The notes under the pieces: model-generated
Told to the model about the DNA's origin: nothing
Database searches by the model: none
Seen by the model: the letters and a program-made list of their open reading frames with translations, nothing else
Made by a program: the position numbers and the translations under genes
Shown: piece after piece, positions 6,074 through 21,930 of the stretch
Layout: the number at the start of each line of letters is the position of its first letter
Position numbering within the stretch: position 1 is the stretch's first letter
NCBI GenBank assembly: GCA_947624175.1
Contig: CANQJD010000004.1
Coordinates: forward strand, 1 to 49,815
Direction of reading: 5' to 3'
Length of the DNA: 49,815 nt
Source of the DNA: an uncultured Bacilli bacterium
GTDB lineage: Bacteria; Bacillota_I; Bacilli_A; RF39; UBA660

Positions 6074-6124
6074 TTAAGTAACTTTTTTAAAAATCGCCGC
6101 TCGCCTTAAGGCGAGTTTTGCCAT
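6074..6124 (-). other. possible 16-codon ORF in the GC-rich 3' flank
   Basis: AAGAGGACAGCA precedes an ATG that opens a 16-residue frame (MAKLALRRAAIFKKVT). The frame contains the perfect palindrome CTCGCCTTAAGGCGAG (6100-6115). It may be a leader, a remnant of retroelement-associated sequence, or noncoding. The ribosome site and the GC-rich codons are the only support. Confidence 0.25.
6100..6115. repeat. perfect 16-base palindrome
   Basis: CTCGCCTTAAGGCGAG, far more GC-rich than the surrounding DNA. It folds as a six-base-pair hairpin with TTAA loop. On the plus strand it is followed by TTTT. Confidence 0.6.
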
Positions 6125-6175: not shown

Positions 6176-6206
6176 GTTTCCCGCGGTTCTTATTCCGCGA
6201 GGAAAC
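6176..6206. repeat. GC-rich hairpin abutting the surface-protein stop codon
   Basis: GTTTCC and CGCGG (6176-6186) pair with CCGCG and GGAAAC (6195-6206) with a single bulged base (6200) and an eight-base loop. The inverted repeat starts at the base next to the stop codon (6207-6209). It has no T-tract, so a terminator role is unlikely. Its position matches the cruciform that follows the variable region in known DGR target genes. Confidence 0.7.
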
Positions 6207-7778
6207 CTATTGCCCCGAATTTAGTTGATATGGACTATCTACTGTTCCTTCCCCATCTACTATTGTGGCCCCGGATATCAGATTAAGACTAGGCCGAACG
6301 CCGCTGATGCCGCTGATGGTATTGTCCGCCACAATCCCAGACTTGAACCAAAAAGTAACCTGTCCAGAGCTGTTAGAAGCAGGAGACAAAAGCCACTCAT
6401 TACTATTATGATTTGCTGTTTGATAAAGCCAACTTGTTGATGGTATATTATTAGTACTATAATTATATAAAGTTGTATTCCATTTGCAACTACTTGCTGT
6501 ATATCCTATGTCACTTGGATACATTAAGGCTATATTTCCATTCCACTCTGTTTGATTTCCTTCCCAGATATCTCCTCCATTACAACTTTCGTTACAACTT
6601 ATATTCCCTCTTTCGTGAGTATAACTACTTATTGCTGTATCATAAACAGAATTAAAATTTCCTAAATAATATTTTGTCTCTTCTATCATATTCTTGGCAT
6701 TTTTGCTTAAGTAACTCATATATCCATCACTTGCTAGTTTTGTTTCTTTATCACTTCCGGCATTTAACCAATATTGTAGTCCTCCTGTTGCCCAGTCATT
6801 ATTGTAAGTACCACTTGTTGAATAATTCCAACGAGCAGTATCAGCATTAACTTTTATATTATAAGTTGTACCTTCAACTTCAAATGTTTCAGGAAATATT
6901 CCACTTAATATCTCGTTTCTGACTATCTTTATATGTTCTGCTCCACTTTCATCTTTAAATATTCCAAGTATTCTCCAAATCTCGCAATTATCTCCATTTT
7001 GTTCTTTTCCATCTTGACAATTAAAGTAGATATAATTGTTTACTTCTGGTCCTATATATCTATATTCTCTTATTGTTTCTTTATTTCCTTCTTGATATAA
7101 TTTTCCTTCTGTATTTATGGCTACTAATCCTCCATTGAAATTAGGTTCTGTGCAAGTATCCGTTACATTACTTACAACTGTTTCTTTTATTGTATCACTG
7201 CCAGTTGTTTCTTTATAAATAATATCATATTGTTCTCCTTCTACTCTTATCTTTCCAGAGAAGGTTCCTCCTGCTTTTTCATAATAATAATCTATCCAGA
7301 ATACTAATTTTGCTTCTATCTTTGCTCCTGATGCAAATTGTTCTATAATATGAAAATTATTTTCACTATCTAAATTTCCTAAATTATCAACTTTAATCTC
7401 TTCATTATCAATATATAAAGCATATCTAATAGCACTTAAATCAATAGTACTATTAAGTATATCAATACCTATTTTTAATCTAAGAGGTATTTTACTTATA
7501 TTCTCAACTGTAAATATATAAGGTTCATTTTGTTTTCCTATTTCATCTGCCATTGGAACTGTTTTTTGTAAATCTATACTTGGACTTTGTTCCTTAAAAT
7601 CTATATCTACTAAACCTGATGTTATAGTATTTTCTCTAGTATCATTAAAACGATAGACAAAATAAATGGTTGCTAAAGAGATTCCTAAAAACATAAATAT
7701 TGTTAGGAACATAAAAAACATTTTCTTTTTATTATTCTCTTTTAGTTTTTTTATTGGTTCATATTCGTAATTTCCCAT
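6207..7778 (-). CDS. TasA/camelysin-like surface protein with C-type-lectin-like variable domain
   Basis: A 523-residue secreted or anchored protein. A cytoplasmic start and one hydrophobic segment (about 18-42) lead into ITSGLVDIDF, the N-terminal pattern of SipW-dependent TasA/camelysin proteins, and a beta-rich domain to about 180. The C-terminal half carries a lectin/sulfatase-modifying-like fold: WRILGIF near 270, WLLSPASNSSG and the end block GVRPSLNL about 20 residues before the terminus. The last ~70 codons use GGC, GCG, ATC, CGG and GTG, unlike the AT-rich codons before them. Start: GGAGAG before the ATG. I infer that the C-terminus is a DGR variable region and that the SipW-like peptidase at 24.8 kb processes the N-terminus. 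It is monocistronic, with its own promoter. Confidence 0.75.
   Translation of the reverse strand: MGNYEYEPIKKLKENNKKKMFFMFLTIFMFLGISLATIYFVYRFNDTRENTITSGLVDIDFKEQSPSIDLQKTVPMADEIGKQNEPYIFTVENISKIPLRLKIGIDILNSTIDLSAIRYALYIDNEEIKVDNLGNLDSENNFHIIEQFASGAKIEAKLVFWIDYYYEKAGGTFSGKIRVEGEQYDIIYKETTGSDTIKETVVSNVTDTCTEPNFNGGLVAINTEGKLYQEGNKETIREYRYIGPEVNNYIYFNCQDGKEQNGDNCEIWRILGIFKDESGAEHIKIVRNEILSGIFPETFEVEGTTYNIKVNADTARWNYSTSGTYNNDWATGGLQYWLNAGSDKETKLASDGYMSYLSKNAKNMIEETKYYLGNFNSVYDTAISSYTHERGNISCNESCNGGDIWEGNQTEWNGNIALMYPSDIGYTASSCKWNTTLYNYSTNNIPSTSWLYQTANHNSNEWLLSPASNSSGQVTFWFKSGIVADNTISGISGVRPSLNLISGATIVDGEGTVDSPYQLNSGQ
6225..6400 (-). other. candidate DGR variable region (3' coding end)
   Basis: Codon use changes abruptly from about the WLLSPA codons onward to GC-rich. 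Codons such as ATC, AGC and TTC sit where DGR targets have adenine-mutated AAC/AAT sites, in a frame reading SPASNSSGQVTFWF, then GISGISGVRPSLNL. The conserved GVRPxLNL end and the hairpin at 6176-6206 match the VR-IMH-hairpin order of known DGR targets. No template repeat was found in the window. Confidence 0.5.
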
Positions 7779-9545: not shown

Positions 9546-11300
9546 CTATTGCTGGCTTACAGTCCAAGTCTTTAAAACATCACAGTTAGCACTGGCAGGA
9601 ACTGGATTTGGAGCATTAACTTTTAGAATTAAAGGAACTTTAAAGGCTGCTCCAAAACATAGACAATAACCTGGTTGTAAAGCTTTTTGTTTTTCAACTA
9701 TTTCTTCCGTGATATTTGGAACCATTTTAGCAATATATTCAATATCTCGTGGGTGAGTTGTTTTAAAGATTAAGAAGTTAGCACATTGAGACATAACAGT
9801 TTCTGAAAGTTCAACTGGTCTTTGAGAAATAAGCGTTAACAAAATTCCATATTTTCTTCCTTCTTTAGCAATTCGATCAAAGATATTATAACCAAGTAAA
9901 TCAATATCTTCTCCACTCTTAATATAACGATGCGCTTCTTCTACTACTAAATTAAATGGAACTGAGGCTCTATTTTGTAAACCTTTGGTATATTCAAATA
10001 TAATTCTTGAAAATATCTTAACAATAACTTTCGCGATACTATCATCAATATCTTCTAAATTAATATTTAATAATTGATACTTTTGACCATTTTGAATAAC
10101 TAAACTTGATAAATATTCTTCAACACCAATAAAGTTAGGATAATCAAAGAATTTTTTAACCTCACTTATTATTAAACTATGAAGTTTTACTTTAACAGCA
10201 ATTGCTTCTCCATAAGTTGCTTCATTATCTAACCAGTTTTCACTTATAAGCGTAAAGTTTAAAGCTTTCTCTAAATCTTCTAAAGTATATTTATTATAAC
10301 TTGTTGGTTCATAATTATCTAAAGTAGGATCAACAAAAGATGCAATATATTGAGATACTAAAATACTTTCTGTAAAATTACCTTGACTATCAACATTAAA
10401 ACATTCTCTAAATTTTCTAGTATAACCAGCCCCTTGTACCACTGCTTCCATATTAAATTCGTTAGTTGTACAAGTATTAAAGATAGCAAAGATATCATTT
10501 CTCTTGGTTCCTGGCATTTTATTAGAATAGAATATTTGTAACATAGCTTTAGCTATAATATGATTTTTATATTTATAACTCGTTTCATCATCTAAAGAAA
10601 AGATTTTTGTTAGTTTAAGCATTCTTTCAAGTAAAGTTAATTGACTAACTTTTTCAAGTTTTAAAAGAAGAGCTAAATCATCTATATTTAAAAGCCATAC
10701 TGGAATTGCTAATTTTTCATAATTATTATAATTACTCGTTGTAATAACTTTAAAATGATAATTAGGATTTATTTGATTCATGTTATTAAAAGCATTGATA
10801 TATTCACCATTATTATCAAATAATACAACCGTTGCTTTATAAGGATAAAAATTAGGTGTTTGAAAGACTGATTGTAAAAGTCTTGTAGTTCCATAACTTT
10901 TACCACTACCAGAGTTACCTAATATTGTTAAGTGATTACTAAATAAACTATTAATACTCATATAAACTGGTTTATTATCATAGAAAGGACTTACCCCAAT
11001 AGACATATTACCATATTCATTAGTTCCCGTTATCATTAGAATTTCATTCTCTTCTAGAAATCTAATCTTTGAAGTTAAACTAGGTTTACTAATAATACCA
11101 CCTTGGAATCTTCCATCAATTATTTCTCCTATAAATCTCGTTTCAACTATATCATCATGAACATATTCAACTTCTGAAACAACTTGTCTATTTGCTTCAT
11201 CAACAAAAACTAAATGTTGATTAATCAAATTAGTCTTAATCTCCCCATTAACTTTTACATGAGCCCCATGGTCACTTATGTAAACAATCTTATCAAACAT
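9546..11300 (-). CDS. HerA/DUF87-type ATPase
   Basis: A 584-residue FtsK/HerA-superfamily ATPase. Residues 1-110 look like a beta-rich HAS-barrel domain. Walker A GNSGSGKS is at 128-135, a Walker B-like VVEEAHRY block lies near 450, and a late LTLISQRP block matches the arginine-finger/sensor region of HerA. Such ATPases form hexamers that translocate DNA. In archaea the partner is NurA nuclease, but no NurA, Sir2 or DUF4297 partner gene is adjacent here. AAGGAGGAA precedes the ATG. It sits between ylxM and the degenerate ABC gene in a tight operon, so its substrate is unclear; membrane- or secretion-linked work is as plausible as DNA repair. Confidence 0.85.
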   Translation of the reverse strand: MFDKIVYISDHGAHVKVNGEIKTNLINQHLVFVDEANRQVVSEVEYVHDDIVETRFIGEIIDGRFQGGIISKPSLTSKIRFLEENEILMITGTNEYGNMSIGVSPFYDNKPVYMSINSLFSNHLTILGNSGSGKSYGTTRLLQSVFQTPNFYPYKATVVLFDNNGEYINAFNNMNQINPNYHFKVITTSNYNNYEKLAIPVWLLNIDDLALLLKLEKVSQLTLLERMLKLTKIFSLDDETSYKYKNHIIAKAMLQIFYSNKMPGTKRNDIFAIFNTCTTNEFNMEAVVQGAGYTRKFRECFNVDSQGNFTESILVSQYIASFVDPTLDNYEPTSYNKYTLEDLEKALNFTLISENWLDNEATYGEAIAVKVKLHSLIISEVKKFFDYPNFIGVEEYLSSLVIQNGQKYQLLNINLEDIDDSIAKVIVKIFSRIIFEYTKGLQNRASVPFNLVVEEAHRYIKSGEDIDLLGYNIFDRIAKEGRKYGILLTLISQRPVELSETVMSQCANFLIFKTTHPRDIEYIAKMVPNITEEIVEKQKALQPGYCLCFGAAFKVPLILKVNAPNPVPASANCDVLKTWTVSQQ

Positions 11301-20112: not shown

Positions 20113-21930
20113 TTAAGGTAATGAAACTTCAAAAGCTGTTTCAGGAGATATTCCATCTCCTCCTGTAATTATTACATCACTTGATAAAGTTATAACTGGT
20201 CTTATTACTTTTAATGTTGAAACATCAAAAGGATCAAGTGTTCCTATTTCAGATACATCATATACTTTTCTACTGCTTTCTGGAGATATCAACCAGAATC
20301 TGGTGCTTTTCGTATTTATTGCAAATAATTCTCCAACCCTTAATACTCCTACATATCCAGTCCAAGTTTTAGATACTTTTTCACAATTCTTAATTGGACT
20401 ATTTAAATCTTCACTTGAACAAATTGTCATTTTATATGAATTTCTATTAAATGGTCCTAGATAATATGTTCCTTTAACCATCATATTTTTATATGACAAA
20501 GCAATTGAATTATACCAATCATTATTCAAATAATAATCCCAATAATCACCTGCAATATTAGCACTATCACCATAATATTCGCTTTCTTTAGTAAGAGCTT
20601 TGATTATTTCTAAGTCATCAGCTTTAACTAATTTTGTTATAGGTTTACTAGTTTCATTCTGAATATTAACAATTCGGTATATTGAATTATCAAATTTTAC
20701 ATACTCACCACTTAATCTTGTATTTAATTTTATATTTTTTAAATCAAAGTTTTTATCACCTTTAATTAAATAAGGATTAGATAAACTACCATCTCCATTT
20801 AACAATTCAACATTAGTTTTTAAAACAATTGATGGTCTAATTCCACCAGAAGGATATGATAAAACTTTTTGAAGAGTACCATTTTCATCAACCCTAAAAA
20901 TTCCTCCTTCGGTATTATAAAGTGTAAGCAAAAACCATCTATATAAATTTGTATTTAAATACCCTTCTTTATCTGTAGTTTTTTTATAACTTTGATAATA
21001 TTCATATGCATTTAGTAGTCCAACTACTCCAGATATAGTTTTAGTTTCTGGTATTTTATTTGTAAAATCTTCTTGAACTGTAACATTCCATTTAGCATTT
21101 TCTTCAATTATATTCTTATTATTATATAAAGTATCTTTAAAATCTTCATTTAAAAATTGATATGTATAGCTGTTTTCAAAATCATTTGTTTTAGAAAGTT
21201 GAATTGCTGTAATAACATCATTAGTTACCATTTTAATTGTTCCATCTGAATTAATACTAGTTATTCTCCATAGTTTTCCAGAATACCACACATAGTTATA
21301 ATTAACCATTTCATTTGTTCCTGATAAATAAGTTACACCATCTTCAACTATAGTTGTTCCTGAATGTTCTTTAATAGCATTATTTATTTTAGTATATAAT
21401 GTATTACTAGCATCTATTTGATTTCCTTCAATTACTACTTTAGCTGTAAAGGTTTTATCCATGTATTCATTTTCAGCATCTTGATCTAACCATACCTTCA
21501 CTTTATAACTTGCACTTTTAGTTGCATCTAACCTTGCTTCTAAATCAATATATTTATCATATCCCATTGTCTTAGGTTCATTATAACCTTCTGAATCTTT
21601 ATTACTTATAAATCTTATATAATTCTTAAATTCTGGATCTGTACTTATCTCTTCTAAATAAACATTGTATCTTGCTTCAATATTACCAGTATTTTTAACT
21701 ACAAATACAAGTTCTTCACTCTGACTACTTCCTTCTGTATCAGACATAGGATACATATTTTCTAAACTTAATTTATCAGTACTACCTTCAAAAGATACTT
21801 GTAAAGTTCCAACATTTATTACATATGGATTCTTTCCTTCGGCTGTACTTCTTAACATGGCATAACTTGAACCTAATAATAATACTAAACTTAATGATAT
21901 CATTAAAATCATTATATTTTTTCTGTTCAT
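20113..21930 (-). CDS. TasA/camelysin-like surface protein with two lectin-like C-terminal domains
   Basis: A 605-residue secreted protein. The signal segment MIMLMISLS-type region (about 5-25) is followed by a TasA/camelysin-like beta domain (VINVGTLQVSF, then PMSDTEG) to about residue 185. Two repeats of a DUF6273-like or lectin-like domain follow: YVWYSGKLWRITSI to IRPSIVLKTNV (about 215-385), and YVKFDNSIYRIVNI to VIRPVITLSSDV (about 410-590). Both end in GGDG/GDGS-type turns. It resembles the 6.2 kb protein, but its 3' end keeps AT-rich codons and has no hairpin, so it looks like a non-variable relative. Probably a SipW substrate. Confidence 0.75.
   Translation of the reverse strand: MNRKNIMILMISLSLVLLLGSSYAMLRSTAEGKNPYVINVGTLQVSFEGSTDKLSLENMYPMSDTEGSSQSEELVFVVKNTGNIEARYNVYLEEISTDPEFKNYIRFISNKDSEGYNEPKTMGYDKYIDLEARLDATKSASYKVKVWLDQDAENEYMDKTFTAKVVIEGNQIDASNTLYTKINNAIKEHSGTTIVEDGVTYLSGTNEMVNYNYVWYSGKLWRITSINSDGTIKMVTNDVITAIQLSKTNDFENSYTYQFLNEDFKDTLYNNKNIIEENAKWNVTVQEDFTNKIPETKTISGVVGLLNAYEYYQSYKKTTDKEGYLNTNLYRWFLLTLYNTEGGIFRVDENGTLQKVLSYPSGGIRPSIVLKTNVELLNGDGSLSNPYLIKGDKNFDLKNIKLNTRLSGEYVKFDNSIYRIVNIQNETSKPITKLVKADDLEIIKALTKESEYYGDSANIAGDYWDYYLNNDWYNSIALSYKNMMVKGTYYLGPFNRNSYKMTICSSEDLNSPIKNCEKVSKTWTGYVGVLRVGELFAINTKSTRFWLISPESSRKVYDVSEIGTLDPFDVSTLKVIRPVITLSSDVIITGGDGISPETAFEVSLP

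Follow-up and report, generated by a model that had tools for sequence, protein, structure and literature searches.

A surface-protein gene of an uncultured RF39 bacterium is probably a past, and possibly a present, remote target of a diversity-generating retroelement encoded elsewhere in the genome

The window analyzed here, a stretch of 49,815 nucleotides from an uncultured RF39 bacterium, is contig C4 of a 1.48-Mb genome (77 contigs, 95% complete). The gene under study, to which the first-pass annotation assigned a length of 6.2 kb, is in fact much shorter (Table 1), and by inspection its protein carries an N-terminal hydrophobic membrane or signal segment. The C-terminal domain gave a weak match to Pfam DUF6273 (E 0.017, below the cut-off), and AlphaFold modeled the last 300 residues with confidence (mean pLDDT 87). 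A Foldseek comparison of this model to the PDB returned an IgA peptidase as the best hit and the sole one below E 0.001; C-type-lectin-like domains gave weak partial matches (8q4e, with a probability of 0.54, and CD94), and several models of DUF6273 viral proteins match the fold. A lectin-like fold is plausible for the variable domain. The GVRPSLNL ending, which had been taken as a mark of targets of diversity-generating retroelements (DGRs), is not diagnostic, since related ORFs without a GC-rich region have a similar motif (for example, GVRPVINL in a related ORF on contig C2). Another ORF in the window (20113-21930, minus strand) matches the target-domain profile weakly and in part.

Table 1. 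Features of the window gene and of the DGR locus on contig C1 of the same genome.
Feature	Position	Strand	Remarks
Target gene	window 6207..7778	minus	1,572 bp / 523 aa
Variable region	window 6289..6394	minus	GGCTTTTGTC...CGGCCTAG; homologous to sister-locus template repeats / variable regions
GC-rich core, C-ending codons	window 6297..6377	minus	poorly conserved relative to the closest sister targets
Constant spacer, variable region to stop	window 6210..6288	minus	encodes SLNLISGATIVDGEGTVDSPYQLNSGQ; identity to the C48 and C38 targets ~85-90%
DNA hairpin abutting the stop codon	window 6176..6206	minus	GTTTCC-(bulge T)-CGCGG-loop AATAAGAA-CCGCG-GGAAAC
Variable region of C1 target gene	~C1:48718		
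Hairpin after C1 target	C1:48906		
128-aa ORF	C1		between the hairpin and the Avd-like gene
Avd-like protein	C1, from 49457		113 aa
Reverse transcriptase (RT)	C1:49782-50879		
Template repeat TR1	C1:50905 onward		

An abrupt GC-rich stretch had been described over the last 70 codons of the gene; the stretch is real, but it covers about 35 codons (6289-6394) and is separated from the TAG stop codon and the hairpin by about 26 ordinary, AT-richer codons. The codons at 6377-6297 have a GC content of 0.51, versus 0.30 in the remaining gene; 11 of these 27 codons end in C, compared to 32 of 496 elsewhere in the gene (Fisher P=1.6e-6), and 17 of 27 have G or C at the third position, compared to 73 of 496 (P=5e-8). 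This block coincides with the region of homology to the templates and variable regions of sister loci. Comparison of the window gene to the targets on contigs C48 and C38 revealed a nucleotide identity of 0.54-0.57 at the variable region versus 0.85-0.90 in the 3′ flank, i.e., a localized hypervariability relative to these close paralogues; further stretches of low identity to the same two genes lie upstream, which makes the dip suggestive but not unique.

The GC-rich hairpin reported to abut the stop codon was confirmed: it is a bulged inverted repeat of 11 bp with both arms fully paired, and its fold energy (z=-3.3) was equalled in only 1 of 200 shuffles. The pattern of its outer arms is limited to three sites in the genome (the same pattern read backwards, as a control, gave zero matches), namely after the C1 target, after a paralogue on contig C3, and after the window gene, all of them members of the target family. 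Elsewhere in the genus, the examined matches to the pattern follow both DGR-adjacent targets of genome G001 and the DGR-adjacent target of G015. Hairpins that vary in sequence but keep this shape lie behind template-matched targets in G012, G013, G014, and G016, as well as behind the RT-adjacent target on contig C58 of G015; the architecture is common to targets in six congeners. In an alignment of ten such hairpins, chosen and trimmed by eye, 98% of the cells pair, a percentage that this selection inflates; the compensatory changes, seen in 6 of the 11 pairs, are the stronger evidence, and the covariation score was reached by none of 500 shuffles. The hairpin alone is no proof of activity, because it is gone or degraded in two template-matched targets (absent from the C38 target, damaged in the C48 target). 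Its covariation makes it a handle for locating remote targets. The C3 paralogue has an intact G015-type hairpin (C3:20334-20363) and a GC-rich variable region, with no fitting template in its own assembly. Downstream of the window gene there is also a perfect inverted repeat, CTCGCCTTAAGGCGAG (window 6100-6115), which may be the real terminator; a similar inverted repeat lies downstream of the C38 target, the one without a DGR hairpin.

As the first-pass annotation stated, the window itself holds neither an RT nor a template: our RT search of the genome matched only contigs C1 and C19, and a search with the template flank gave strong matches only on C1 and C48. The same genome does encode a complete DGR on contig C1, comprising a target, an accessory ORF, an Avd-like protein, an RT, and the template repeat TR1 (Table 1). 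The best PDB match of the C1 RT is 8ub7 (E 5e-20), annotated only as “Reverse transcriptase”, which we take to be the DGR RT of Bordetella phage BPP-1, and the protein also matches a PHROG reverse-transcriptase family (E 4e-72); judged by these best matches and by its Avd and TR context, it probably belongs to the DGR clade. Three libraries agree on the 113-aa protein: Pfam (bAvd, E 2e-6) and NCBIfam (DivGenRetAVD, 1.5e-7), both below the curated cut-offs, and PHROG (“Avd protein of DGR”, 4.5e-11). TR1 differs from the variable region of the neighboring target at 22 of 34 adenines and at none of the 72 other positions (P 2e-14). By its sequence features, the C1 system is a canonical DGR. Protein-family searches found no convincing family for the 128-aa ORF between the target and the Avd-like gene, and an Rfam search of the C1 locus returned zero matches. 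The second RT ORF (C19:1-1214, locus L001) is group II intron-like by inspection and lies directly upstream of another paralogue of the target family.

A second template, TR2 (locus L024, ~10257-10547, minus strand), shares contig C48 with a target; the RT search gave no match on this contig. The 3′ flank of TR2 is 95% identical to that of TR1, and the sequence before TR2 resembles, by inspection, the terminal 3′ part of an RT gene, of which it may be a remnant. TR2 differs from the C48 target at 5 of 77 non-adenine positions, and from the C38 target at 7 of 76 non-adenine positions and 21 of 33 adenines; at least one paralogue therefore has its matching template on another contig. We observed similar pairings in other genomes of the genus: in G014, a template on contig C8 matches a target on C55 (1 non-adenine mismatch in 70), and in G013, templates on C95 match targets on C33 and C37 (3 of 68 and 3 of 71, respectively). 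Among the 17 genus genomes, 9 have a DGR RT at least 60% identical, and 14 have some RT match at E<=1e-5. We gathered seventeen templates in the genus, five of them from G013, a genome with one RT match at the same threshold. In the RT-less template cassettes, about 130 nt of 3′ flank are conserved. Two template cassettes stand in tandem, about 330 bp apart, on contig C28 of G013 (locus L222, ~480-1050); the single RT match of that genome is on C95. We do not assign a defined RNA structure to the template 3′ flank: there are some compensatory pairs, but the consensus fold reaches only -5.9 kcal/mol. The best template-target pairs within genomes, including pairs on different contigs, show 0-9% non-adenine mismatch, while pairs across genomes have a minimum of 15% (n=873; this null covers part of all targets across genomes, and is conservative because it is made of related paralogues).

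The window gene belongs to the same target family, which has 28 full-domain paralogues in its own genome. Over the full alignment its closest relative is the second C19 paralogue (78% identity), and the C48 target is 61% identical; in the C-terminal domain, identities to the C48 and C38 targets are 67% and 68%, respectively. Across the 28 paralogues (loci L129, L146, and L159-L184), the GC excess of the variable region is graded from 0.32 to -0.02. The window gene ranks fifth, at 0.19, and ranks 1, 2, and 4 are template-matched targets; most of the 28 match no template found. This declining series suggests retired regions drifting back towards AT.

We found no template that fits the window gene. 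TR1 and TR2 show 28% and 24% non-adenine mismatch to its variable region (18-20 differences over 72-74 positions, versus 0-7 in template-matched pairs), which is within the cross-genome null. The template-flank search found no third cassette in the genome's own assembly, none of the full-length templates of the genus fits (16 congeners searched), and the DNA of the window region matched nothing outside its own genome among 145 family genomes. When an inferred third template was joined to the conserved flank and used as a query, its matches in the genome were TR1, TR2, and the window region only; viral-contig matches to the start of the inferred template were discarded as three copies of one unrelated sequence. 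A template on contig C118 of G015, cut by the contig end, has 3 non-adenine mismatches in 24 over the 41 nt that can be compared to the window region. The genome is incomplete, so a missing template is no proof of absence; with 77 contigs, 95% completeness, and cassettes that share a 95%-identical 3′ flank, the cognate template may simply have escaped assembly. The cognate template of the window gene is thus either unassembled, in the missing ~5% of the genome, or lost.

We conclude that the 3′ end of the window gene is very probably a remote (trans) target of the host-encoded DGR, in the past and possibly still at present. The RT, Avd-like gene, and template repeats found on other contigs brought the remote-target proposal of the first-pass annotation through its main test; the machinery is in the genome and another paralogue is template-matched in trans, but the searches lend no support to a live template-target pair of the window gene. 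By analogy to BPP-1, and given the adenine-only differences between TR1 and its target, the C1 Avd-like protein and RT would copy the template RNA, misreading adenines, and the cDNA would replace the homologous variable region upstream of the hairpin. The window gene would have arisen as a dispersed copy of a C1-type DGR target, its variable region being filled likewise from a separate template of its own; since such a template would be AAC-rich, the region would become GC-rich and rich in NNC codons within an AT-rich genome. If that template does not lie in the unassembled part, it would have been lost and the region frozen.

Other explanations have to be weighed against this one. The GC-rich block and hairpin could be an ordinary GC-rich domain end followed by a transcription terminator, or a horizontally acquired patch, without any involvement of a DGR; a GC-rich hairpin behind a stop codon is often a terminator, and the GVRPSLNL-type ending also occurs in related ORFs that lack the block. 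However, no T run follows the hairpin, a terminator consensus scan did not pick it up, its three sites in the genome all follow members of the target family, and the block falls where sister loci have their template and variable homology, so we regard this explanation as highly improbable. We find it barely credible that TR1 or TR2 diversifies the window gene at present: both templates lie in the same genome and serve the same protein family, and the region's ends are shared (CTTTTGTC and CGGCC..AG), but homing would overwrite the many non-adenine differences that separate them from the window region.

A third explanation is a sub-case of the trans-target reading rather than its competitor: the DGR template that once filled the region would since have disappeared, and the region would now be drifting towards AT like most of its paralogues. 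It fits with the absence of a suitable template from every genome searched and with the graded GC excess of the family, as expected if retired regions ameliorate. Precedents exist as well: Treponema denticola SP32 has a remote target that was left over (PMC4891356), and in Nanoarchaeota, DGR fragments lacking an RT were read as fossils or remote targets (PMC4372165). On the other hand, the window hairpin is fully intact, the GC content of the region is still near that of template-matched targets, and the template may be among the unassembled sequence. Such a fossil origin accounts for about half of the probability in our judgment; whether the window gene is a live or a fossil target is a matter of roughly even odds.

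More broadly, and with less than even confidence, we propose that one DGR enzyme in the genus may serve many separate templates: cassettes of a template and its 3′ flank would have become detached from the enzyme gene and been copied, even in tandem, and would supply a family of surface-protein paralogues numbering in the tens, in which the retired members would form a graded archive of frozen variants, with the window gene as one branch. Should such a use of many templates be borne out, these bacteria, with their small genomes, would lend themselves naturally to work on template mobility, on action in trans, and on how retired targets age. In addition, a probable remote DGR target was recognized here solely by the anatomy of its 3′ end, and the enzyme that later turned up on another contig backed it; according to a large metagenome survey, remote targets of this type would escape the approach used there (PMC8144416).

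Our limited literature search found no work on DGRs that names RF39, and such work may exist. Similar to the BPP-1 DGR, the system described here has an RT whose best PDB match is the one given above, an Avd-like helper, a template repeat with AAC/AAT codons, adenine-only changes, a variable region close to the target's 3′ end, and a hairpin downstream of it; we list as differences that the template here follows the RT gene and that the window target is on another contig. In known phage-type DGRs, the hairpin has a stem of 7-10 bp and a GRNA loop of 4 nt, and 4-34 bp separate it from the variable region (PMC3240598), whereas the hairpins found here have a 6+5 bp stem with a conserved one-base bulge and a loop of about 7-9 nt, at a distance of about 80 bp. 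The dispersed paralogous targets are shared with the multi-target DGRs of bacteria such as T. denticola, cyanobacteria, and Thiohalocapsa PB-PSB1, for which remote action in trans was likewise inferred from template matches (PMC4891356, PMC7517822, PMC10907252). Unlike in those systems, there are several templates per genome, some on contigs without an RT match, most of the 28 paralogues have no template match, and the target domain is DUF6273-like, in Bacilli with small genomes. Genomes that hold more than one template repeat and more than one target gene have been reported before (PMC6642488); a difference here is the presence of RT-less template cassettes, which have a conserved 3′ flank and, on C48, an apparent leftover of the RT gene. 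The literature thus already covers remote targets, action in trans, multiple templates, and leftover targets (PMC4891356, PMC7517822, PMC10907252, PMC6642488, PMC4372165); what the RF39 system adds are minor variant features, namely the bulged hairpin at some distance from the variable region and the template cassettes that lack an RT.
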